This document shows, one piece after another, positions 810 to 13,015 of a stretch of 64,000 bases of DNA. The notes under the pieces are model-generated. The model was given only the letters and a program-made list of their open reading frames with translations, was not told the origin of the DNA and made no database searches. The stretch's first letter is position 1; every line of letters begins with the position of its first letter. A program made the position numbers and the translations under genes. Source of the stretch: Chloroflexota bacterium (GTDB taxonomy: Bacteria > Chloroflexota > Anaerolineae > UBA4142 > SHND01); assembly GCA_029778615.1 (NCBI GenBank), contig JAKOPZ010000316.1:1-64000 (forward strand), read 5' to 3'.

Positions 810-1642
810 CAGGTCGTCCGCGTAAGCTGTTCGCAAATGCGCCACAGTTTTTCTTCGGCGGCGCGATTGCGAAATTCACATGCTACTTGTTTTCGGTCCA
901 CAAAAAATTTATTGGTCACGCCTTCCAGCTCGGCGCTGCTCGCCATCCAAATCGCCGTGTCCGCGCCATCCGCCAGCGTGCGGTCGCTGTAGGTCCGCAG
1001 TCGCGCGACCAATCCGGGCGGAGAATGACGATACAGTCCGGTGTCCACCACCAGTCCCGGCGTCATGGCGTTTACCCCCACACCGCTGCCCTTGAGTCTG
1101 CGCGCCATCGCCCATGTCAAAAGCCGGTCGCACGCTTTGGACTGCGCGTATGCTTTTGCCCCAACAAACGGACGCCGCTCAAATTGGAGGTCATCCAAAT
1201 CCAAATCGCTTGCAAACTCTGACGCGACATTAATAATCCGTGACGGCGCGCTCGCCGTCAGCGCATCAAGCAAAAGTTGGGTCAACAAGAAATAACCGAG
1301 GACATTCGTCGCAAACGTCAATTCAATTCCCTCTGCGTTCGTCGCGCGCGGGAGTGCGCCGCGATTCATGGCAGCATTGTTAATGAGCACGTCGAGACGC
1401 CGAAACTGTTTCCGAAATTGTTTGGCAAATTCGCGAATGGATTTTTGGCTTGCCGCATCCAGATGAAGCACGACAATGTTTTTCGCGCGTGTGCGTTCCT
1501 GAATTTCACGCGCGGTCTTCTCGCCCTGCGCCACATCACGACACGCGAGAACCAAATTCGCACCCTGCGCGCCCAACCCCAGCGCGATTTCCTTGCCAAT
1601 CCCCGACGTTGCGCCGGTAATCACGACCCGCTTATTTTTCAT
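809..1642 (-). CDS. Short-chain dehydrogenase/reductase (SDR)
   Basis: NAD(P)-dependent oxidoreductase of the classical SDR superfamily, closest in layout to retinol-dehydrogenase-like members. Visible motifs: the cofactor loop TGATSGIG at residues 9-16, NNA at 88-90, catalytic Ser141 (NVAS), and the Tyr165-x-x-x-Lys169 pair (YAQSK). At 277 residues it has normal length and is complete. The ATG overlaps the asparagine-synthetase stop by four bases (ATGA), and its own stop overlaps the next gene by one base, so it is in the same operon. The substrate cannot be read from sequence. Its place after asnB in a RiPP-like locus suggests a tailoring oxidoreductase, but it could be a passenger. Confidence 0.85.
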   Translation of the reverse strand: MKNKRVVITGATSGIGKEIALGLGAQGANLVLACRDVAQGEKTAREIQERTRAKNIVVLHLDAASQKSIREFAKQFRKQFRRLDVLINNAAMNRGALPRATNAEGIELTFATNVLGYFLLTQLLLDALTASAPSRIINVASEFASDLDLDDLQFERRPFVGAKAYAQSKACDRLLTWAMARRLKGSGVGVNAMTPGLVVDTGLYRHSPPGLVARLRTYSDRTLADGADTAIWMASSAELEGVTNKFFVDRKQVACEFRNRAAEEKLWRICEQLTRTT

Positions 1643-3555
1643 GGCACCCTTTCCAAAATCGGTCCGCTCGGCATCACATCAGCCGTGTCCGTACTCTTGT
1701 TTACCTGAAACAAATCATGCCACAACTGCGTGGTCAGAATGCCCATCAAAATTCGACTGTGGTCCGCGTGACCCGAAACATGCTCGGCGCGGAGGCGCGC
1801 AACGTGCGCGGGCACAAAGTAATCCGCCCTGACCAGCGCGTCGCGCGTCAAACGCGCTTCTGCCCAATCCGGCAAGCGTTCGCGTTTCCACCACAGCCGA
1901 TGCGGCGCGCCAAGTCCTTGCTTGCGTCGCTGCGTGATAATTTTCGGCAGCAAATCGCCCACTGCCGCGCGCAATAAACTTTTTTCCAACCCACCGCGTG
2001 TTTTCATTTCCGTCGGCAATGATGCGCAAAACTCCCACAGCCGATAATCGAGGAAAGGCGCGCGCGCCTCGATGGAATGCGCCATGCTCAAACGGTCAAC
2101 TTCCATGTTGATAAAATCAATCAGGCGCGTGTGGCTTTCAATGTACTGCATTTGATGGAACGGCGGCGCATCGTCAAGCGGTGAGCCAAACGCGTTTTGC
2201 CAGACGCCCGTAACAGCACCCCCGTTGTGCGAATGAACGTTCAAAAATTCCGCGCGTTGTTGCGGCGATGCGACCATCTGCCACACGGCGTACCGCTCCG
2301 CCATGTTGTGTGGAGCCGCTCGCAGCACACGGCGCGCGGGCGCAGACATTTTGAGCGGCGACGCGGCAAGCCACGAACGCAGAGGCGCGGGCAAACGCAG
2401 CAGCGCGCGCGCTTGCGCGTCCCCGCGATACCAATGATAGCCGCCGAGCATTTCATCCGAACCTTCGCCTGTCAACACCACCGTCAAACCCACTGCGCGA
2501 CATTTTTCGTACAACAAATAAATGGGCAAGGACGTGGCAGAGCACTGCGGCTGCTCCAAATGCTCTATCACTTGCGGCAAACGCTCGAAATCTTGAAGCG
2601 TGAACGTGAACGTGTGATGTTGTGTGCCGAGATGTTCTGAAGCCGCGCGCGCATAGGCAGACTCGTCATAGCCATCCGCTTCAAAACCAATCGAAATGGT
2701 GTGGAGCGGTTCTGCCGCGCGGGCTTGCAGCAACGCAACTACCGCCGACGAATCAATTCCGCCACTCAACAGCGCGCCGAGCGGCACTTCACTCATCCGT
2801 CGAATTTCCACCGCCCGACTTAACCGTGCGCGAAATTCTGCGACGGCATCAACCCAAGAGAGGGAACTTGATTTTGCGCGCGTAAAATCAATATCCCAAT
2901 ATTTTTCGAATTTGATTTCGCCGCGTTCATAGAGCAAACAATGCGCGGCGGGGACATTGTAGATGCCCTCAAACATGGTGAGCGGCGATGGAATGAATCC
3001 AACGGCGAACAGCGCTTCGAGCGCGTGCAGATTCGCGCGCGGGGTGAGACTGCCTTCTGCCAAAAGCGCGCGCGCGGTAGAGCCAAACACGAGGCGTCCG
3101 TCGGCAAACGCATACACCAACGGTTTGACGCCGAAACGGTCACGCGCGAGCATCAAGCGCGCGCGCGGCGCGTCCCATAACGCGATGGCAAACATCCCGC
3201 GCAATCGTTCCACCATACGCGTGCCCCATTCTTCGTAACCGTGCAAAATCACTTCTGTGTCGCTGTGCGTGCGAAACGTGTGCCCGCGCGATTCCAACTC
3301 GCGTTTCAATTCCAAATAATTGTAAATTTCGCCGTTATAGACGACCCATACCGTTTCTTGTTCGTTCGCTTGCGGCTGCGCGCCGCCCGCGACATCAATG
3401 ATGCTCAAACGCCGCATCGCGAGTCCGACGCCGGGCGCGCGATAATAACCCGCGTCGTCCGGACCGCGATGAATTTGGCGGTCGTTCATCGCCACCAACG
3501 TCTCGTGCGCGGGCAGCGCGTGATTGGCTTTAACAATGCCGCAAATGCCACACAT
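1639..3555 (-). CDS. asnB: Asparagine synthase (glutamine-hydrolysing), lasso-cyclase-like
   Basis: Two-domain amidotransferase of 638 residues, normal for the family. The glutaminase domain begins with the nucleophile Cys2 (MCGICGIV) and fills about residues 2-210. The synthetase domain carries the ATP-pyrophosphatase loop SGGIDSS at 264-270. AsnB makes asparagine from aspartate and glutamine. Close homologues act as lasso-peptide cyclases (C protein), activating an Asp/Glu side chain by adenylation to form a macrolactam. Immediate neighbours are a B2-type peptidase (2 nt upstream) and a PqqD-type protein, the classic lasso B2/B1 pair, so a RiPP role is favoured. A general asparagine synthetase, or the amidotransferase of an exopolysaccharide system, remains possible. 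The sequence is intact. Confidence 0.88.
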   Translation of the reverse strand: MCGICGIVKANHALPAHETLVAMNDRQIHRGPDDAGYYRAPGVGLAMRRLSIIDVAGGAQPQANEQETVWVVYNGEIYNYLELKRELESRGHTFRTHSDTEVILHGYEEWGTRMVERLRGMFAIALWDAPRARLMLARDRFGVKPLVYAFADGRLVFGSTARALLAEGSLTPRANLHALEALFAVGFIPSPLTMFEGIYNVPAAHCLLYERGEIKFEKYWDIDFTRAKSSSLSWVDAVAEFRARLSRAVEIRRMSEVPLGALLSGGIDSSAVVALLQARAAEPLHTISIGFEADGYDESAYARAASEHLGTQHHTFTFTLQDFERLPQVIEHLEQPQCSATSLPIYLLYEKCRAVGLTVVLTGEGSDEMLGGYHWYRGDAQARALLRLPAPLRSWLAASPLKMSAPARRVLRAAPHNMAERYAVWQMVASPQQRAEFLNVHSHNGGAVTGVWQNAFGSPLDDAPPFHQMQYIESHTRLIDFINMEVDRLSMAHSIEARAPFLDYRLWEFCASLPTEMKTRGGLEKSLLRAAVGDLLPKIITQRRKQGLGAPHRLWWKRERLPDWAEARLTRDALVRADYFVPAHVARLRAEHVSGHADHSRILMGILTTQLWHDLFQVNKSTDTADVMPSGPILERVP

Positions 3556-3557
3556 TT

Positions 3558-4001
3558 TTACGGATAACTATACATCACTGCGAACCCCAAATAATTTTCA
3601 CTCTCTTCGTGAAATGGCGCATCATCGTGCATCAACCACGCGTGTCCGCCAATGTCGCGCGATTCTTTGAGCCGCGCGCCAAAACGAATGGTCACGGGCA
3701 AACCGGCGCGCCGCAAAAAATGATAGCGCAGCAGCGAACGCCGCAAACAAATACCCAGCGGTGAACGCACATCGAGCGCTGCCACCGCGTCCGCCAGTTC
3801 GCGCACAGTGGAAGGGTCCAATGCAATATCGCGCGCGCGGGGTGTCAACTCTGCCATCAAATCAGGCAGCGGCAGATTGTTCAGCCGCGCGGGCAGCGTG
3901 CGCTCGAAACGCCACATTTCCGCGCCGAGACGCGGCGCGAGAAAAATTCCCTTGAACATCCACCACAGCGCGTCCGCCGCGCGCCGAAATTTCTGCGCCA
4001 A
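3558..4001 (-). CDS. Lasso-peptide biosynthesis B2-type peptidase
   Basis: A 147-residue transglutaminase-like cysteine peptidase of the lasso B2 family (Transglut_core3). Cys85 in GICLRRSLL and His120 in GGHAWL are the recognisable catalytic residues, and an Asp follows shortly after the His. In lasso systems B2 removes the leader once the precursor is delivered by the PqqD-like B1 protein. The N-terminal region (about residues 1-55) matches the helical extension of stand-alone B2 proteins. The start is TTG directly after the PqqD stop (TAATTG), implying coupled B1-B2 translation. The stop is 2 nt from asnB. The order B1-B2-C is typical, and it is the strongest evidence that the locus is RiPP-related. 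Confidence 0.85.
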   Translation of the reverse strand: MAQKFRRAADALWWMFKGIFLAPRLGAEMWRFERTLPARLNNLPLPDLMAELTPRARDIALDPSTVRELADAVAALDVRSPLGICLRRSLLRYHFLRRAGLPVTIRFGARLKESRDIGGHAWLMHDDAPFHEESENYLGFAVMYSYP

Positions 4002-4277
4002 TTATTTGACCACCTCTGCCAGTCCCTCACGCACCAAATCGTCTGCCACTTCGGTTAAATCCGATAGAATCATTTCAAGAGGCGCGTCATACTCTTTTGC
4101 CAGCAGCGCGGCGCAATCGGCTACCGAGCGCGTGCCATCCAACATTTCCCAAAAGGATGTCCCCACTTGATTGAGCGAATAGTACACGCCCGATTTGATG
4201 TGAATCAGAATCGCTTCGTCGGCGACGACTTGATAGGTGGCGTTGGCGGAATGTTTCAAACGAGTTTGCGTATCCAC
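4002..4277 (-). CDS. PqqD-family RiPP recognition element (lasso B1-like)
   Basis: Small PqqD-fold protein that binds leader peptides and presents them to the peptidase. The diagnostic stretch ADEAILIHIKSGVYYSLNQ is followed by G-x-x-F/W and a helical C-terminal half ending VREGLAEVVK. I chose the GTG at 4277 (91 residues, the usual family size) because AAAGGAG lies 8 nt upstream on this strand. The alternative ATG at 4343 would overlap the divergent kinase gene and its promoter. The gene is coupled directly to the B2 gene. A PqqD protein of the HPr-rel-A exopolysaccharide type is an alternative, because an HPr-kinase-like gene is divergent from it. Confidence 0.85.
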   Translation of the reverse strand: MDTQTRLKHSANATYQVVADEAILIHIKSGVYYSLNQVGTSFWEMLDGTRSVADCAALLAKEYDAPLEMILSDLTEVADDLVREGLAEVVK

Positions 4278-4290
4278 AAGCACAGCTCCT

Positions 4291-4319
4291 TTGCGAGCAA
4301 TCTGTTTTTTGTCTATACT
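4291..4319 (+). promoter_or_regulatory. Promoter of the kinase gene, apparently leaderless
   Basis: TTGCGA (4291-4296), 17-bp spacer, TATACT (4314-4319), then only 6 nt to the ATG at 4326, so transcription should begin at or next to the start codon. The -35 box overlaps the ribosome site of the divergent pqqD gene, and the -10 core TATA can also be read on the minus strand (TATAGA). The two transcripts probably share or compete for this site. Confidence 0.6.
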
Positions 4320-4325
4320 GGCGCA

Positions 4326-5267
4326 ATGCGTTTCGACCTGCACGGAATCGAAATCGAATTGAATTCAAACGACGCGCTGCTTGGCGCGCGCACGCGTGAA
4401 ACGTTTGCGTCCCATCGCGCGCTGGCGCAGCACAAAAGCCGTCCCGACATTTTTTTTCAACTTGACTTGACCGAATCCATTCCCGCGCCGCCATCCGGTG
4501 AACCCGCGTACGCCGAGCGCGACTTGATTCACTATTACGTTACACCGCCGCGCGTCGTCGCGCATTTTCCGCGTTATGGACAATTACAAATTGATTTGGC
4601 ACACGCGCGGATTGAGGGCGAGATTATTGCGGCAGCGCTGACGACGTATGGCGTATTTGAAGATTTGGTCGCGATTGGACTTGCGCCCCTTTTGCGGCGG
4701 CGCGGAAAATTTTTGGTTCACGCGTTCGCGGCAGAACGCAACGGACGCGGCGCGCTACTCGTCGGCAGCATCGGCGCGGGAAAAACAACAACCGGCATCG
4801 CACTGTTGCGCGCCGGTTGGCGATTGCTCTCGAATGATTCCCCGTTGATTGATGCCGTAACCTCAAACATTTTAAGTTACCCCGGTCTGCTGAGCGCGTA
4901 CCCTGAAACGCTGCGCCGTTTCCCCGAATTGCATCCGCTAGTAACGGACGCCTACGCGCGGCGCAAAATTTCATTCGCCGCCGAGTCCGTTTATCGCGAC
5001 GTGTGGAGCGGAGCCGCCGCGCCCGGTGTCATTCTTTTTCCAACGGTTGAAAAAATTTCAGAACATCGCGCGGTGCGCTTGACCGCGCCGGAAACCCTGC
5101 GCTTGCTCCTGCCGCATGCGGTGGAACGTTGGGATACCGAAATGATTCCACAGCATCTTGCGCTGCTCAACCGCGTCGCCGCGCAAACTCCCGCATACCA
5201 ATTGTTGCTTGCGCCCGATACCGAAACCGTTCCACAGCTGCTTGGCAAATTGTTGGTGAGTCGCTAA
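4326..5267 (+). CDS. HPr kinase-like (HprK-related) kinase
   Basis: Protein of 313 residues with a C-terminal HPr-kinase/phosphorylase-like nucleotide-binding domain. The P-loop GSIGAGKTT lies at about 147-155, and LSNDS at about 168-172 gives the acidic residue after the loop. The N-terminal 110 residues are a divergent domain without known motifs. HprK homologues in lasso clusters (paeninodin type) phosphorylate a C-terminal Ser of the precursor; another subfamily (HprK-related kinase A) occurs in exopolysaccharide systems. The gene is divergent from pqqD and convergent with the radical SAM gene (2 nt between stops). The start at 4326 was chosen because a promoter lies directly before it and the protein begins cleanly there; 4167 would run deep into pqqD. 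Confidence 0.8.
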   Translation: MRFDLHGIEIELNSNDALLGARTRETFASHRALAQHKSRPDIFFQLDLTESIPAPPSGEPAYAERDLIHYYVTPPRVVAHFPRYGQLQIDLAHARIEGEIIAAALTTYGVFEDLVAIGLAPLLRRRGKFLVHAFAAERNGRGALLVGSIGAGKTTTGIALLRAGWRLLSNDSPLIDAVTSNILSYPGLLSAYPETLRRFPELHPLVTDAYARRKISFAAESVYRDVWSGAAAPGVILFPTVEKISEHRAVRLTAPETLRLLLPHAVERWDTEMIPQHLALLNRVAAQTPAYQLLLAPDTETVPQLLGKLLVSR

Positions 5268-5269
5268 CC

Positions 5270-6796
5270 TCAAATACTTTCCATCGCCGGTCCCTTGTGG
5301 GTTTGCGTATTGTTGTACGGCACGAGCCAACGATGAATCCGTTTCAAAATTCCGCCGCGCGCGGCAACATCTTCAAACGCGTGTTTGAGTTTCCCCTCAA
5401 AGTAATATTTGAAATACATGTTGCGCCAACGCCAACGCAATAACGCGTAATACGGCGCGAGCAGCGCGTTACCGCGACTGCGCCCCACAAACAGAATATC
5501 ATTGATTTCGCTCAACACCTGTGATTCCGCATCACTCACCCACGGCGTGTTCCCGCGATTCAAATCAAAATCGCACCAGCCCTCTTGATGCGTGGGCGGA
5601 ATAAAGCCGCGCGCCAACGCGTCCTCCCACAACGGCGTTCCGGGATACGGCATGTATACGCAAACGGAACAGCGCGCCTTTTCGTTAAGGTCACACAATT
5701 TTTCAATCAGGTCAAAGGTCACTTGACGTTCAACGATATTTTCTTCCGGCAACCCGACGATGAACGAAAGATTCGCTTCGATATTTGGCGCGTACGTTGT
5801 GAGATTCCGCACCGCCATTTCGATGTGTTCCGCTTTTTGGTCTTTGTGCATACTGTCGAGCACGCGTTGACTGCCCGATTCCGCGCCAATGTTCACCCAT
5901 TGGCAATTTGTGTCGCGCATCCATTTTACAAAATCCGGTTTCAAAAGATGCACACGCACTTGTCCCGACCACGGCAGCCCCACTTTTTCGACGAGCCGCT
6001 TCATCGGCGTCACGCGTCCAAACAAATAATCGTCCGCGTAATCCACCGCGTTGATGCGATAATTTTTTTCCAGCCAACGAATTTGCTGCACCACATATTC
6101 GTCCGAATGCTGTCGCCATGTGCGCTTCATCACCACTTCGTTGTAACAGAAACCGCAGCGAAACGGACAGCCGCGCGAAATGTAAACGGGCAGCGCGCGG
6201 TCATACGCGCCGCTCTGAATCAAATAGCGCTCGACCGGTATCAAGTCCCACGTCGGCGTGTACTGGTCGAGGTCGGCGATGAACGGACGCTCGCCGACAA
6301 ATTGAATTGTGCCGCCGCGTTTGTGCGCCAAGCCAAAAATTTTCTGAAAGGTTTCCGCCGCCGCGTCGTCGCGCAACGCGTGCGCGAGTTCGACAACGGT
6401 TTCTTCGCCTTCATTCACCACAACGTAATCAATATATTCTTCGCGCAAACAATCTTCGGGCATGATGGTTGCGTGCACGCCGCCCCATACAACGGGAATG
6501 CCGAGTGCATGCACCGCGCGTGACGCGTCAATCGTCGGTTTGAGCTGGGGACCGGTGACGGTGCTAAAACCGACAAACAATGGTTTCGCCGCGCGGACGC
6601 GTTCGACAAATTCTTGAAGAAAATCTTCCGTCTCGTGATAAATGCTTGGCTCGTAGCCCGCCTGCCGCAGCGCGTCGGCAACATACATCAAACCGAACGG
6701 CGGATACATGTCGCGATGATTGCGAAAGTTGATGAGGATTATTTGATTGCTCATGCGTGTCAGTCGCTTTCCTTGACATTCGATTCGGGAATTCAT
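5270..6796 (-). CDS. B12-binding-domain radical SAM protein
   Basis: About 508 residues. The N-terminal Rossmann-like cobalamin-binding domain (about 18-145, opening IILINFRNHRDMYPPFGLMYVADALR) is followed by the radical SAM core with Cys210-x3-Cys214-x2-Cys217 (RGCPFRCGFCYN). The C-terminal third is an unassigned extension. This class methylates unactivated carbons or rearranges carbon skeletons; some members tailor RiPPs. The ATG at 6796 overlaps the methyltransferase stop (ATGA); the internal ATG at 6754 (MSNQIILINF) begins closer to the domain and may be the real start. In this context it may modify the peptide or a lipid/glycan partner. The substrate is not deducible. Confidence 0.85.
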   Translation of the reverse strand: MNSRIECQGKRLTRMSNQIILINFRNHRDMYPPFGLMYVADALRQAGYEPSIYHETEDFLQEFVERVRAAKPLFVGFSTVTGPQLKPTIDASRAVHALGIPVVWGGVHATIMPEDCLREEYIDYVVVNEGEETVVELAHALRDDAAAETFQKIFGLAHKRGGTIQFVGERPFIADLDQYTPTWDLIPVERYLIQSGAYDRALPVYISRGCPFRCGFCYNEVVMKRTWRQHSDEYVVQQIRWLEKNYRINAVDYADDYLFGRVTPMKRLVEKVGLPWSGQVRVHLLKPDFVKWMRDTNCQWVNIGAESGSQRVLDSMHKDQKAEHIEMAVRNLTTYAPNIEANLSFIVGLPEENIVERQVTFDLIEKLCDLNEKARCSVCVYMPYPGTPLWEDALARGFIPPTHQEGWCDFDLNRGNTPWVSDAESQVLSEINDILFVGRSRGNALLAPYYALLRWRWRNMYFKYYFEGKLKHAFEDVAARGGILKRIHRWLVPYNNTQTHKGPAMESI

Positions 6797-7692
6797 GCTC
6801 CCGTTTTTTGAAACGCGTACAACACTTGTTTGTCCAATTGGCGCACGCGCGGCGAGAACGTTTTTGCTTCACTCAATTCGCGACCCGAATGATAGCCGCG
6901 CAATTCCAGTCCGCCCGCGCGCGCGTCACTTATGAGCTCAGTGTGACGATACAGATGATAATACACACGTCCCGGCGTCGGCGTCAAACTCACCTGCTCG
7001 ATTGCCGTATCACCCAATTCGCCGCGCAGCATGTGCGCGCGACGCGCGGTATCCAGCCAACCGTTCAACGTGCGCCAACGCAATGTGCGAAGAATTCCGC
7101 GCGTGTGCCAAAGCCACGCGGCGGTATTTCCGCGATTCGATTCCAAAAGAGCATCCGCGCGCGCGTGTGCTTTTTCGCTCGCACCGTTACTTGCAAGTCG
7201 GCGCGCAGAGGTCAACTTGTGCCAGCCCCACCACGCGTAGCATGTGAGCGCAGGCGCAAGATTATCAAGCGCCAGCACCAAGACGCCGTACGGTCTCAAC
7301 ACGCGCGCAATGTCCGCGAACGCCTCGCGCCGCGCCGCGCGCGTTGGGACATGCTGGAGCGCCGCAATCAAAATCAACACAACGTCAAAACTTTTTTCCG
7401 CGTGCGGAATTTGTCGCAGGTCCGCCTGCACCAGACGCGCGTCACGCGACAATTCGCGCGCGGCGGCAAGCATATTCCACGCAAGGTCAAGCCCCGTTAC
7501 CGCGTATCCGCGCGGAGTGAGCGCGATTCCTGCGCGCCCACTCCCGCAGCCCAAATCCAAAATGCGCGCGGGCGGCGGCGGCGCATAGCGCGCGAGCATT
7601 TCTTGTTCACAAACTTGTAAACCTTGCCGCGCAAATTCTTGCCAAAATTGCACGACGGCGGACTGCGCGTACTTGTCAACCGTGCTAATCAC
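6793..7692 (-). CDS. Class I SAM-dependent methyltransferase
   Basis: Rossmann-fold methyltransferase of 299 residues. Motif I RILDLGCGSGRAGIAL lies near residue 45, followed by motif II TGLDLAWNML and a motif-III-like DVVLILIAALQHV. The GTG at 7692 was chosen: AAGGG lies 6 nt upstream, it begins just after the stop of the SUMF1-like gene (7704), and it gives a normal N-terminus (ISTVDKYAQ). The open frame back to 7776 would overlap that gene by 70 bp. The stop overlaps the radical SAM gene by four bases. As an ordinary SAM methyltransferase beside a B12 radical SAM enzyme, it could add a conventional N- or O-methyl group in the same pathway. The target is unknown. Confidence 0.82.
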   Translation of the reverse strand: MISTVDKYAQSAVVQFWQEFARQGLQVCEQEMLARYAPPPPARILDLGCGSGRAGIALTPRGYAVTGLDLAWNMLAAARELSRDARLVQADLRQIPHAEKSFDVVLILIAALQHVPTRAARREAFADIARVLRPYGVLVLALDNLAPALTCYAWWGWHKLTSARRLASNGASEKAHARADALLESNRGNTAAWLWHTRGILRTLRWRTLNGWLDTARRAHMLRGELGDTAIEQVSLTPTPGRVYYHLYRHTELISDARAGGLELRGYHSGRELSEAKTFSPRVRQLDKQVLYAFQKTGA

Positions 7693-7703
7693 AAATCCCT
7701 TGC

Positions 7704-8516
7704 TCAATTTGAAATGACAACGCGGAATCCCGTTCCCTGCGCGCGATAGTCCGCGCTCGGCGTCGTGATACTGCATGCGCTTTTCACAAACAGTTTTGTG
7801 TGATGAACGCTATAGCCCCACGAACCGCCTTTGACCACATGAAAGCCCGCGAGATTCGGATTATACAAACTGGTCGTCCATTCCCAGATGTTGCCTGCCA
7901 TGTCCAAGCAGCCGTACGGCGAAACATTTTCGCGAATCGCGCCAACGGGCAAAGGGGTCCCGTTGCGCCAATACCAACCGCAGCGCGCCAATTCACGACG
8001 CGGTTTTACAAACAAGCTATAGAGATACGTTTCCGGACCGACCGGAAATTTTTTTTGCCAGCGCAATTCAGGGCGCGGGTGTTGCTCGCCCCACGGATAC
8101 GTTCGCCCATCCGTCCCGCGCGCGGCTTTTTCCCATTGTTCTTGAGTGGGCAGCGTACACGCGCGTCCGATTTTTTTCGCGAACCATTCACAATACGTGA
8201 ACGCATCGCCTTGGCTCACATCCACAATCGGATACTGCGCCAGCTCGCGCGGATATTCGTTCACAATTCTATACCGCCGCCGCCAATCACCGCCGGTTGC
8301 CCACCAGTTTCCGCGCCACGCGAATTTTGTTTCGTCGAGAAAATGTTTCCACTGCTGATATGTGACGGGCGCGATGGCGATGAGAAATTCATCCAGCTCA
8401 ATCGTCTGGCGCGGTTTTGGCGGCGGACATTTTTCCAGACGCTCGTACGTTTCTTCGGGACCGTAAACAAAGGGACCGGCGGACACGCGGACAAATCCGC
8501 TTGGCACATTCGTCAT
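7704..8516 (-). CDS. SUMF1/FGE-fold protein without the copper cysteines
   Basis: A 270-residue formylglycine-generating-enzyme-like domain over the whole length. It starts PSGFVRVSAGPFVYG and contains ITIAPVTYQQWKHFL-like segments, DMAGNIWEWT, KGGSWG and the terminal GTGFRVV strand. True FGE proteins have two copper-binding cysteines in the segment after GGSW (around human C336/C341); here that segment reads GYSVHHTKLFV with no cysteine, so sulfatase activation is unlikely. Relatives (EgtB, PvdO-like, binding-only domains) act in peptide or small-molecule tailoring or as ligand-binding folds. The ATG overlaps the DUF5693-like stop by four bases. It is an operon member of the RiPP-like locus; its role is unknown. 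Confidence 0.75.
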   Translation of the reverse strand: MTNVPSGFVRVSAGPFVYGPEETYERLEKCPPPKPRQTIELDEFLIAIAPVTYQQWKHFLDETKFAWRGNWWATGGDWRRRYRIVNEYPRELAQYPIVDVSQGDAFTYCEWFAKKIGRACTLPTQEQWEKAARGTDGRTYPWGEQHPRPELRWQKKFPVGPETYLYSLFVKPRRELARCGWYWRNGTPLPVGAIRENVSPYGCLDMAGNIWEWTTSLYNPNLAGFHVVKGGSWGYSVHHTKLFVKSACSITTPSADYRAQGTGFRVVISN

Positions 8517-10370: not shown

Positions 10371-11570
10371 TCAATGTGAATGAGAACCTGCGGAGGATTT
10401 TTTCGGCTGAAGACGAAGCAAAGCGGCGCGGGTGCGCTGCATAATCAATTCGCCCGTGTCCGTGTTCAAAATGTCGAGCATCGTCCGCCATACGCGCCAC
10501 TGCTCCAGCGGCGAAGATGCCCAGCGCGCGACCTCAACGCGGTCTTGCCAACCGCGTTGGACGCGCTGCCCAAAAGTGGATACGGGTGCGCGTTGACTGC
10601 GCGCGACGATGTGCGCGAGCGACAAGGTTCGCACATAGCGGCGCACGCGCGCCGAGCACGCGCCGTCGAGTTTTTCCAAAACAAAAAAAGGAATCGGCGC
10701 GTCCAGCGTTTTTTGCGCCAGCGCCAGCGCGGCATAGACATACGGCGCGGTGTGCTGCGCGTTAGCGCGCGCAACGACAACGTTCCAATCAATTTCTGAA
10801 TCCAAACGTGAGGTCACAAACACCAAGTCCAATAGTTGCACCATCGAAGGATAACCCATGATGAGATGAAAGGTGAGATGCACCGCGAGATGCAAAACGA
10901 GGTCATCCGCGCACAACGCGCGCGCAGAGTGCGAATGCACTTGGAAGGGAATGCTGCGCGCCCAGACGCCCGGTGTTATATCCGCGCGCAGTCCGTACCA
11001 CGACTCTTCCAGCAACGTGTGCGGCTCAATCGTGCGACCCACAGCCGAGCTGAGATACGGATTCGGCGTTGCGTCATCGGCGCGCGGGGGGCGGAAGGTT
11101 GAAGTGTGTTTGGTGACGCCCGCGCCGCGTGTGGACGATTTATAGCTGCCGACATAACCCAACGCGGTGAGCGCGTTTTCCGTCGCGGTGAGGTCGTCCG
11201 GTTGAACGAGAATATCAATGTCGTTCATTTGCCGCAGGTGAGGTTCGGGATAAACGCTTGCGGCAAGATAACTGCCTTTGAGCAAGAGGGGGTGGATGCG
11301 GCGCGCGGCGAGAGCAGAGAGAATGGTTTCGAGTTGAGCGTCGAGGGCAGCGCGTTGCTGCCGAGCCGTTTCGCGTGCGGCGGCAAGCTTTGCCATGGCG
11401 CGCGGTTCGAGTGAGAGATTCCATTCCCCCAATCGCCAATGGAGCAGCGGCGCGAGTCCGAGCACAATTGCAGAAATGGCAAGCGCATCCTGGTCAATAG
11501 ACCCCAGCTGCGCTTGCCATTCCGTTCGCGTTTGGGTTGATTGAAACGCGCTCGCTAAAAGTTCAAACAC
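10371..11570 (-). CDS. Nucleotidyltransferase-fold protein (NTP_transf_5 type)
   Basis: 399-residue member of the uncharacterised nucleotidyltransferase family often found in lasso and HPr-rel-A gene clusters. The signature LLLKGSYLAASVYPEPHLR is followed by QMNDIDILV, with the two Asp residues expected of the minimal nucleotidyltransferase fold. The C-terminal half is helical with no known motif. The start is GTG at 11570. No good ribosome site is visible, because a MITE-like element ends only 25 nt upstream. It is the first enzyme gene after the leader-peptide gene, on the same strand. Family members probably transfer a nucleotide to a peptide, sugar or protein. The exact reaction is unknown. 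Confidence 0.8.
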   Translation of the reverse strand: MFELLASAFQSTQTRTEWQAQLGSIDQDALAISAIVLGLAPLLHWRLGEWNLSLEPRAMAKLAAARETARQQRAALDAQLETILSALAARRIHPLLLKGSYLAASVYPEPHLRQMNDIDILVQPDDLTATENALTALGYVGSYKSSTRGAGVTKHTSTFRPPRADDATPNPYLSSAVGRTIEPHTLLEESWYGLRADITPGVWARSIPFQVHSHSARALCADDLVLHLAVHLTFHLIMGYPSMVQLLDLVFVTSRLDSEIDWNVVVARANAQHTAPYVYAALALAQKTLDAPIPFFVLEKLDGACSARVRRYVRTLSLAHIVARSQRAPVSTFGQRVQRGWQDRVEVARWASSPLEQWRVWRTMLDILNTDTGELIMQRTRAALLRLQPKKSSAGSHSH

Positions 11571-11594
11571 ATGAAACCGATTGGCGCAAGTGAC

Positions 11595-11699
11595 CTAGTG
11601 CAGCATTAAACAAGCTCTTTTGCGCAAGTGCAAGAACTCGTTTAGAAATCGGTCTTGCCTCAACGCGCACTCACAACAAGTTGGTTAATGATGCACTAG
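11595..11699. mobile_element. MITE-like element, copy 1 (105 bp)
   Basis: Non-coding element, about 90% identical to 21996-22101. The ends are inverted: CTAGTGCAGCATTAA at the left, and the right end read on the other strand is CTAGTGCATCATTAACC. A second internal inverted repeat (GCAAGA...TCTTGC) would let the single strand fold into a cruciform or hairpin. There is no open frame. CTAG stands at both tips and may be target or terminus. It sits just upstream of the nucleotidyltransferase GTG, directly after the right arm of the 22-bp inverted repeat. Confidence 0.7.
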
Positions 11700-11702
11700 A
11701 AA

Positions 11703-11724
11703 TTATCCCGAGGAGGCGCGCTAT
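11703..11724. repeat. 22-bp inverted repeat, right arm (relative to the transcript)
   Basis: Perfect reverse complement of 12047-12068 (core CCCGAGGAGGCGCGC). The two arms enclose 322 bp holding the leader-peptide gene. It abuts the MITE-like element (3 bp gap). Confidence 0.85.
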
Positions 11725-11928: not shown

Positions 11929-12000
11929 CTAGTGGCTGCTGAAGGTGACCTGTTTGAGCGTCGCGTGTTTTTTCAGCGCGGGCTTTGTGTATGTTTTCAC
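11929..12000 (-). CDS. Lasso-type leader peptide, 23 residues, apparently lacking a core
   Basis: GTG start with AGGAGG 5 nt upstream, the best ribosome site in the region. The peptide begins MKTYTKPALKKH and ends LKQVTFSSH. It fits the leader pattern recognised by B1/PqqD proteins: Tyr4-x-x-Pro7-x-Leu9, with Thr19 at the usual -2 position before a cleavage site. After Thr-Phe only Ser-Ser-His remain before TAG. Either the gene is truncated, the stop is read through (an Asp would be at core position 9), or a short peptide really is the substrate; Ser is what lasso kinases phosphorylate. A consensus promoter lies about 100 nt upstream. It is too short for ordinary gene finders. The frame after the stop is open for about 47 codons but rich in Arg and Cys. 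Confidence 0.65.
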   Translation of the reverse strand: MKTYTKPALKKHATLKQVTFSSH

Positions 12001-12024
12001 TTGGTCCTCCTGATGGGATGCTGG

Positions 12025-12048
12025 CTAGCCAGTGCGACCGGTGTTCAT
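12025..12048 (-). CDS. Possible 7-codon upstream ORF (M-N-T-G-R-T-G)
   Basis: ATG at 12048, preceded by AGGAGG with a 6-nt spacer and ending TAG at 12025, between the promoter and the leader-peptide gene. The ribosome site lies inside the 22-bp inverted repeat, so pairing of the two arms in one transcript would hide it. It may be chance; an attenuation role is only a suggestion. The palindrome CTGGCTAGCCAG (12021-12032) overlaps its end. Confidence 0.3.
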   Translation of the reverse strand: MNTGRTG

Positions 12049-12068
12049 AGCGCGCCTCCTCGGGATAA
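12047..12068. repeat. 22-bp inverted repeat, left arm (relative to the transcript)
   Basis: Perfect reverse complement of 11703-11724. It is in the presumed 5' untranslated region of the leader-peptide transcript, about 35 nt after the expected start site. Confidence 0.85.
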
Positions 12069-12105
12069 CATTGCCGGAACACACGGTAAAGAATGAGTGC
12101 GGGCG

Positions 12106-12134
12106 AGTATACCATCCAGCAAACGGACTGTCAA
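12106..12134 (-). promoter_or_regulatory. Consensus sigma-70 promoter of the leader-peptide transcript
   Basis: TTGACA (12134-12129), 17-bp spacer, TATACT (12111-12106) on the minus strand: 11 of 12 consensus bases with ideal spacing. Transcription should start near 12099, giving an untranslated leader of about 100 nt containing the upstream ORF and one arm of the inverted repeat. It is the strongest promoter match I found in the window. Confidence 0.75.
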
Positions 12135-12202: not shown

Positions 12203-13015
12203 TCAGATTTCGCGCATCGCATCATTCGGCGCGTCTTGCAAATCAAAACGCGCGACCAGCGGAAAATGGTCTGACGCGCGCACGGCAGGCGCTGCTGTTA
12301 CGCATTCGCAAAAACGCAAGCGCGCCGCGAAAGACGGGTCGGCAAAAATATAGTCGAGCCGCGCGCTTGCGTGTGTGGTCATCCATGTCATCCCGGATTC
12401 GTTCGGATGCAGTGCGCGAAACGCGTCCGTGTACCGGGCGCGCACAAGCGGAGTGAGCGCAAAGTGAAATGTGTGATTGAACTGTAAACGCAAGCGCCGG
12501 TGAATACGCGGAGGAAAAATCGAGAGGTCGGCGCGCTCACCGCGCAGGACGGCATTGAAATCACCCATAACAAGGTGCGGCGTGCTGCGGTTGCGCTTTA
12601 TCACCTGCAAAATTGCCGATACCGTGCGCCACCGCGCGAGTTCGTACTGCAGCAGCATAAAGTACGGCAAGAGATGAACGCCATAAATGCGTACTGTCTG
12701 TTTGCCAATCTGCAATTCCGCTTCGAGCAGGGCTTGGGTTATGGGACGCCGATTGTAGATTCGCCAATTTAGAATCGGCAGACGCGACAAAAGCGCGATA
12801 TGTTTGGTGCCGCTGCCGTGCGCCCAAATGGACTGCATTCCAAGTTCACGCGCCAATTGGTCAAGCGTCGCCGGATGGTCCGCTTCGTTGAGGAGAACGA
12901 CATCCGCGCCGGTCATCGCAATCACCTCGCGGATGAGTTCGACGCGCTCGCTGCCGCCATCGCAAATGTTGTACGTGAGAACGGTAAAGAGGTTGTGCGT
13001 GGTCAATACGTCCAA
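12203..13015 (-). CDS. Endonuclease/exonuclease/phosphatase (EEP) family protein
   Basis: 270-residue metal-dependent phosphodiesterase fold. Motifs in order: LTYNICDGG (the Asn that binds metal), LLNEAD (catalytic Glu), YGVHLLP, MGDFNAV (Asp and Asn) and the terminal ASDHFPLVARF (Asp-His). There is no signal peptide. The family includes DNA repair nucleases, sphingomyelinase-like enzymes and phosphatases; the substrate cannot be assigned. The start is probably TTG at 13015, 13 nt after the stop of the M20 peptidase gene, so it ends the sucC-M20-EEP operon. The 187-bp gap between its stop and the RiPP promoter holds only that promoter. Confidence 0.82.
   Translation of the reverse strand: MDVLTTHNLFTVLTYNICDGGSERVELIREVIAMTGADVVLLNEADHPATLDQLARELGMQSIWAHGSGTKHIALLSRLPILNWRIYNRRPITQALLEAELQIGKQTVRIYGVHLLPYFMLLQYELARWRTVSAILQVIKRNRSTPHLVMGDFNAVLRGERADLSIFPPRIHRRLRLQFNHTFHFALTPLVRARYTDAFRALHPNESGMTWMTTHASARLDYIFADPSFAARLRFCECVTAAPAVRASDHFPLVARFDLQDAPNDAMREI

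Follow-up and report, generated by a model that had tools for sequence, protein, structure and literature searches.

Three described systems are among the closest points of comparison for the locus reported here. In the Bsf lasso pathway, the kinase BsfK phosphorylates a core Ser with the help of B1, and the cluster also carries a nucleotidyltransferase (PMC10368454); it supplies a precedent for a kinase step acting on a precursor held by a recognition protein. Linear polyphosphorylated peptides (LPP), described in 2026, derive from precursors of 35–200 residues with variable cores (45 residues in LppA) and rely on an SpI-type peptidase and an MsbA-like exporter (PMC13381572). The mycofactocin precursor MftA, 31 residues long in M. 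smegmatis, is bound by a chaperone, and a peptidase releases its core of just Val-Tyr, a precedent for a tiny core (PMC7491314). The locus described here looks like a further RiPP system of the RRE/HprK/nucleotidyltransferase kind; by analogy it most resembles the paeninodin-like/Bsf and LPP systems, and it recalls mycofactocin in having a core made of the last residues.

The window (the whole stretch of DNA that was analysed, 64,000 nucleotides) contains a minus-strand ORF at 12000–11929 that begins with GTG and encodes a 23-residue product, MKTYTKPALKKHATLKQVTFSSH, a candidate leader-only precursor or scaffold peptide. Its codons, read as the reverse complement of 12000..11929, are GTG AAA ACA TAC ACA AAG CCC GCG CTG AAA AAA CAC GCG ACG CTC AAA CAG GTC ACC TTC AGC AGC CAC TAG. 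With the core counted from Ser21, as in the lasso-leader numbering used for BsfA (PMC10368454), Tyr4, Pro7, Leu9 and Thr19 fall at positions −17, −14, −12 and −2, so the peptide carries the lasso-leader pattern Y(−17)xxP(−14)xL(−12) with T(−2), and Ser-Ser-His alone is left as the “core”. A preliminary description of this DNA had proposed a B1-binding pattern formed by these four residues, an AGGAGG 5 nt before the GTG and a stop after Thr-Phe-Ser-Ser-His. The residues lie exactly where it placed them, with lasso-leader spacing; the Shine-Dalgarno sequence occupies 12006..12011 on the minus strand, and the TAG directly follows CAC. Homologues likewise have strong Shine-Dalgarno sequences. Further upstream lies a candidate sigma-70-type promoter, TTGACA-17-TATACT with a TG (12106..12134, minus strand; 11/12 matches). 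It is the single promoter-like match found upstream of the ORF, against 0.5 expected in shuffled sequence, and a same-genus relative, L055, has a match of the same form at the same position. The strict leader motif matches only once in the 64-kb window, at the peptide ORF. No second copy of the peptide occurs in the whole 6.0-Mb genome at E ≤ 10, and neither the genome search nor the strict motif in the window revealed a second precursor with a normal core.

As transcribed, the peptide is followed by genes for a nucleotidyltransferase (PF14907, NTP_transf_5; 10371..11570, minus strand; 158.7 bits), the first enzyme gene past the peptide; a DUF5693 protein (PF18949; 8513..10366, minus strand), conserved in the clusters; an FGE-sulfatase-fold protein (7704..8516, minus strand); a SAM-dependent methyltransferase (6793..7776, minus strand), absent from some clusters; and a B12-binding, BchE/HpnJ-like radical SAM enzyme (5270..6796, minus strand), the diagnostic marker of the system. 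Beyond it lie a convergent gene for an HprK-like kinase (4167..5267, plus strand; P-loop GSIGAGKT), whose listed start is probably too far upstream, and then B1, a PqqD-type RiPP recognition element (RRE; 4002..4343, minus strand; PqqD 59.5 bits), B2, a lasso-type leader peptidase (Transglut_core3; 3558..4001, minus strand; lasso_biosyn_B2 44.2 bits, cut-off 33), an AsnB-type amidotransferase (1639..3555, minus strand) and an SDR. The kinase and B1 genes are divergent and their starts overlap (window 4167–4343), and they may share a regulatory region. The source genome also holds a second B1-like and Transglut_core3 (B2-like) pair (G000 contig C60, 23148–25787). In loci with the nucleotidyltransferase or radical SAM gene on the same contig, the peptide lies just upstream of one or the other. 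A conserved gene for an Exo_endo_phos-family protein (12203..13015, minus strand) recurs next to the peptide or to AsnB in several of the clusters. Because glycosyltransferase and flippase genes surround several clusters, some neighbours may serve polysaccharide synthesis; in some clusters a flavin oxidase lies near or between the genes.

Cys85 and His120 of B2 are invariant. The AsnB-type enzyme retains the glutaminase residues C2, R49, N74, G75, E76 and D99 in 15/15 homologous sequences, and its nearest solved chain in the PDB is a hydroxyamidotransferase; with the glutaminase set intact and such a relative, amide formation with ammonia is plausible. Sequence and fold relatives of the FGE-fold protein include SUMF2, ToxD, CalU17, FGE, PvdO and EgtB/OvsA, and any link to histidine chemistry is no more than a suggestion. 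Formylglycine-generating activity is unlikely, as the copper-binding Cys pair of FGE is unconserved and the fold search confirms the superfamily only. The structural model, built from 11 sequences, is only moderately reliable (mean pLDDT 73.9), and the stretch around the former Cys site is among its low-confidence segments.

Homologous peptides were collected by searching with the B12-radical SAM enzyme of the cluster and then with a leader profile. This yielded 29 distinct ORFs; the one in G167 runs off the end of its contig and was left out, leaving 28 complete ORFs in 23 genomes, nearly all Chloroflexota. Every complete ORF ends in Thr-Phe-Ser-[Ser/Ala/Met]-His-stop (variable residue Ser in 25, Ala in two and Met in one), with TAA as the stop codon in 20, TAG in six and TGA in two, and the conserved stop position spans several bacterial families. 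Residues Y, K, P, K, L, T, F, S and H are invariant, H12 is kept in 27/28, and codons vary silently. The L055 locus (CALMZO010000051.1, genome G237), from an uncultured Chloroflexi bacterium, is a same-genus orthologous cluster whose main enzymes share 66–87% protein identity with those of the window. Its peptide, MKTYTKPALKKHETLKQVTFSSH, keeps 22/23 residues and the stop; ten codons differ silently between the two ORFs against a single amino-acid change, and Phe-Ser-Ser-His-stop is identical. Past the stop, similarity fades, and in L055 the TAG is directly followed by an in-frame TAA. The sequences indicate that the peptide ORF is conserved well past what chance would give, under strong purifying selection, and strongly support a leader-only peptide that is complete as it stands, not truncated. 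Aligning homologous loci for conservation of the stop was one check proposed in the preliminary description, and the stop is kept in 28/28; a contrary outcome it named, a full core at a homologous locus, was absent among the orthologous clusters when all fetched loci were scanned without regard to the tail.

Only in a more remote system, which combines B1 and HprK with another B12-radical SAM enzyme (as in L068), does a comparable leader precede a longer core. Leaders of this related type, YQTPTLTKHQRLQKVT among them, run into longer cores, for example LGTVSNGPNWLLPGN, in L063, L064, L068, L071, L072 and L073, where they adjoin B1 and, in most, also the HprK-like kinase and the different B12-radical SAM gene. 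These longer-core peptides are not lasso precursors, because no acidic residue lies at core positions 7–9.

The leader-only family is patchily distributed, since in a phylum-wide sample of 400 genomes only the source genome has the peptide. It is present in 16/396 genomes sampled from the class, in 18/21 genomes searched because they hold the radical SAM enzyme of the cluster, and in 8/9 genomes whose B1 relatives are the closest (E ≤ 1e-19). A plasmid collection gave no DNA match and no peptide match, and one weak nucleotidyltransferase match, in Crinalium.

With paeninodin-like/Bsf lasso systems the cluster has in common the leader (Y−17, P−14, L−12, T−2), a stand-alone PqqD-type B1 together with B2, an AsnB homologue, an HprK-like kinase and a nucleotidyltransferase. 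It differs in its three-residue core, S-[S/A/M]-H in 28/28 ORFs, which holds no Asp or Glu and therefore permits no macrolactam ring, where lasso precursors have an Asp or Glu at core 7–9. In place of a lasso cyclase (C protein) it has an AsnB homologue that scores 227 bits against the lasso-cyclase model, below the cut-off of 525, and keeps the full glutaminase set, and it adds the B12-radical SAM enzyme, the FGE-fold protein and DUF5693. LPP systems (PMC13381572) share a [Y/W]xxP leader in which a His follows the Tyr by eight residues, a discrete RRE, an HprK kinase, an NTP transferase, location in polysaccharide loci and the lack of a lasso ring. The new system, however, has a three-residue S-x-H tail ending in His instead of a long variable core with a phosphorylated Ser3, and adds AsnB, B12-radical SAM and FGE-fold proteins; among the cluster proteins included in a general scan, none matched an SpI-type peptidase or MsbA-like exporter, and B2 is present instead. 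With mycofactocin it shares a short precursor, a radical SAM enzyme and a core of last residues only. It departs from that pathway in having Ser-x-His rather than Val-Tyr, a B12-binding BchE/HpnJ-like rather than MftC-type radical SAM enzyme, and a lasso-type B2, kinase, nucleotidyltransferase and AsnB in place of MftC/D/E. Because a defining feature of each is missing, the system is not a member of the lasso, LPP or mycofactocin families.

The peptide ORF is enclosed by a long-range stem, with a 5′ arm at 12047..12069 (GTTATCCCGAGGAGGCGCGCTAT) and a 3′ arm at 11702..11724 (ATAGCGCGCCTCCTCGGGATAAT), both on the minus strand. In the window the arms contain a perfect 22-bp inverted repeat (11703–11724 and 12047–12068), 322 bp apart. 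Arms were sought by local complementarity search, as RNAduplex with full-length flanks was uninformative. An enclosing stem scores above all 25 shuffles for 23/28 ORFs; the five exceptions are L095 and four downstream copies in tandem loci, in which one stem encloses both copies of the ORF. In an alignment of the 15-pair stem core, hand-anchored on the stem and thereby favouring the percentage paired, 96% of cells pair, and in 14/15 pairs both partners vary. Covariation scores 0.655, compared with 0.245 ± 0.026 for shuffles (0/500), which ignore relatedness; the score also collapses when the alignment is slid, a safer control. For every element, the predicted minimum-energy structure includes most of the closing stem. 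No Rfam family matches the stem/peptide region, and nearby Rfam matches are tRNAs in some genomes. The most economical reading of the stem is an mRNA processing or stability element.

Three further features of these loci were observed. Tandem duplicate leader-only ORFs, about 128 nt start to start within a single enclosing stem, occur in L151, L152, L153 and L154, and in L115, L116, L117 and L118 the leader-only ORF is closely preceded by tRNA genes. Between the 3′ arm and the nucleotidyltransferase gene, the window holds a MITE-like repeat of about 105 bp (11594–11701; CTAGTGCAGCATTAA...TTAATGATGCACTAG), with some 18 further copies in the genome at 75–97% identity.

Taken together, these results suggest that a RiPP-type pathway probably uses this ORF as its complete precursor, with Ser-x-His as a minimal core. 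From the gene content we infer the following scheme. Residues 1–20 would serve as a lasso-type leader, bound through YxKPxL by the stand-alone RRE (B1), and the last three residues, Ser-x-His, would form the core. B1 would present the peptide to the HprK-like kinase and the nucleotidyltransferase, which may act on the invariant Ser21, while the B12-radical SAM and FGE-fold proteins would act on the Ser-x-His tail, with His23 the likeliest target. The AsnB-type enzyme, its glutaminase residues intact, may amidate or otherwise condense the free C-terminal carboxylate. B2 could then cut past Thr-Phe and release a modified tripeptide, much as MftE does with the two-residue mycofactocin core. The long-range stem would allow production of the peptide mRNA to be uncoupled from that of the enzymes and to exceed it. 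Several observations count against this minimal-core pathway: a tripeptide left by B2 cleavage would be a very small RiPP core; in some genomes (for example, G304 and G324) B1, B2 and AsnB lie 70–140 kb away from the peptide; the glycosyltransferase and flippase genes around several clusters mean that some neighbours may serve polysaccharide synthesis; and the FGE-fold model is of limited reliability.

The main rival to the minimal-core RiPP is a carrier or scaffold role, in which the C-terminal His carboxylate or side chain would anchor the assembly of a small molecule or amino acid that is later released, so that the peptide itself is not the product. Such a role would liken the peptide to PEARL scaffolds or LysW-type carriers. 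PEARLs are LanB-like peptide aminoacyl-tRNA ligases, and their scaffold peptides (TglA, AmmA) provide known examples of C-terminal extension, in which a leader-like peptide likewise hosts chemistry at its C-terminus. The invariant terminal His with its free carboxylate fits this role, as does an AsnB-type enzyme with both its glutaminase and its synthetase domain intact, which could build an amide at that His. The tail of the new peptide, however, has a conserved Ser as well as the His: Ser21 is as invariant as His23, and a pure C-terminal anchor would not need it. PF04738, the PEARL-type domain, was not found in 12 peptide-bearing genomes, a weak test as control genomes gave no match either. 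We regard a carrier role as possible but unlikely. The preliminary description had offered, as one of three readings, a leader-only scaffold modified at its C-terminal Ser or His. That the peptide is leader-only and complete finds strong support in the shared end point of 28 ORFs and in the genes linked to it for a kinase, a nucleotidyltransferase and an amidotransferase; modification at the Ser or His is a prediction.

Next in line is a regulatory role, which we judge improbable. Here the peptide would not be a substrate; its translation within the stem would control the downstream genes by attenuation, or the free peptide would gate the RRE as a B1 decoy. The position of the ORF, inside a covarying long-range stem just 5′ of the first enzyme gene, is what such an element would show. 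Attenuation peptides, however, typically abound in a single regulatory amino acid, whereas this peptide is conserved at the amino-acid level, including the RRE motif and a specific C-terminus. Tandem ORF copies within one stem also fit a need for more peptide better than they fit a regulator.

That the inverted repeat is instead a DNA-level invertible switch or the ends of a MITE or other transposon is highly improbable. A perfect 22-bp repeat with arms 322 bp apart has the size typical of an invertible segment, but it occurs nowhere else in the genome, the ORF faces its downstream genes in all loci inspected with no inverted orientation among homologues, and a single stem spans both copies in tandem loci. 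The arms covary from lineage to lineage and hold more G-U pairs than C-A mismatches (18 versus 8), which favours RNA. Finally, a truncated (pseudogenised) lasso precursor, or one completed by stop readthrough, both raised in the preliminary description and in keeping with the lasso-spaced leader, has practically no prospect of being correct: truncation, readthrough and recoding are excluded because the end is conserved in 28/28 ORFs across families, under strong purifying selection and with no longer-core orthologous locus, while the stop codon varies among TAA, TAG and TGA, and the Asp noted at core position 9 past the TAG, although in frame, is a coincidental “ring” residue because the downstream sequence is unconserved and L055 has TAG-TAA.

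Precursor finders expect a leader followed by a recognisable core, and a precursor ending three residues past its leader would for that reason be discarded as broken. No report of this leader-only peptide family was found in the open-access literature searched. A conserved precursor with a near-invariant tail points to a substrate for the otherwise unassigned B12-radical SAM, FGE-fold, DUF5693, HprK-like kinase and nucleotidyltransferase proteins. The covarying stem that encloses the ORF forms a second element in its own right and belongs to no Rfam family. More tentatively, the system may represent an undescribed class of ribosomal small molecule, found mostly in one phylum, whose product would derive wholly from Ser-x-His, possibly as a metal ligand or a modified-histidine cofactor; its precursor mRNA would lie within a covarying long-range stem of its own that sets the peptide-to-enzyme stoichiometry.
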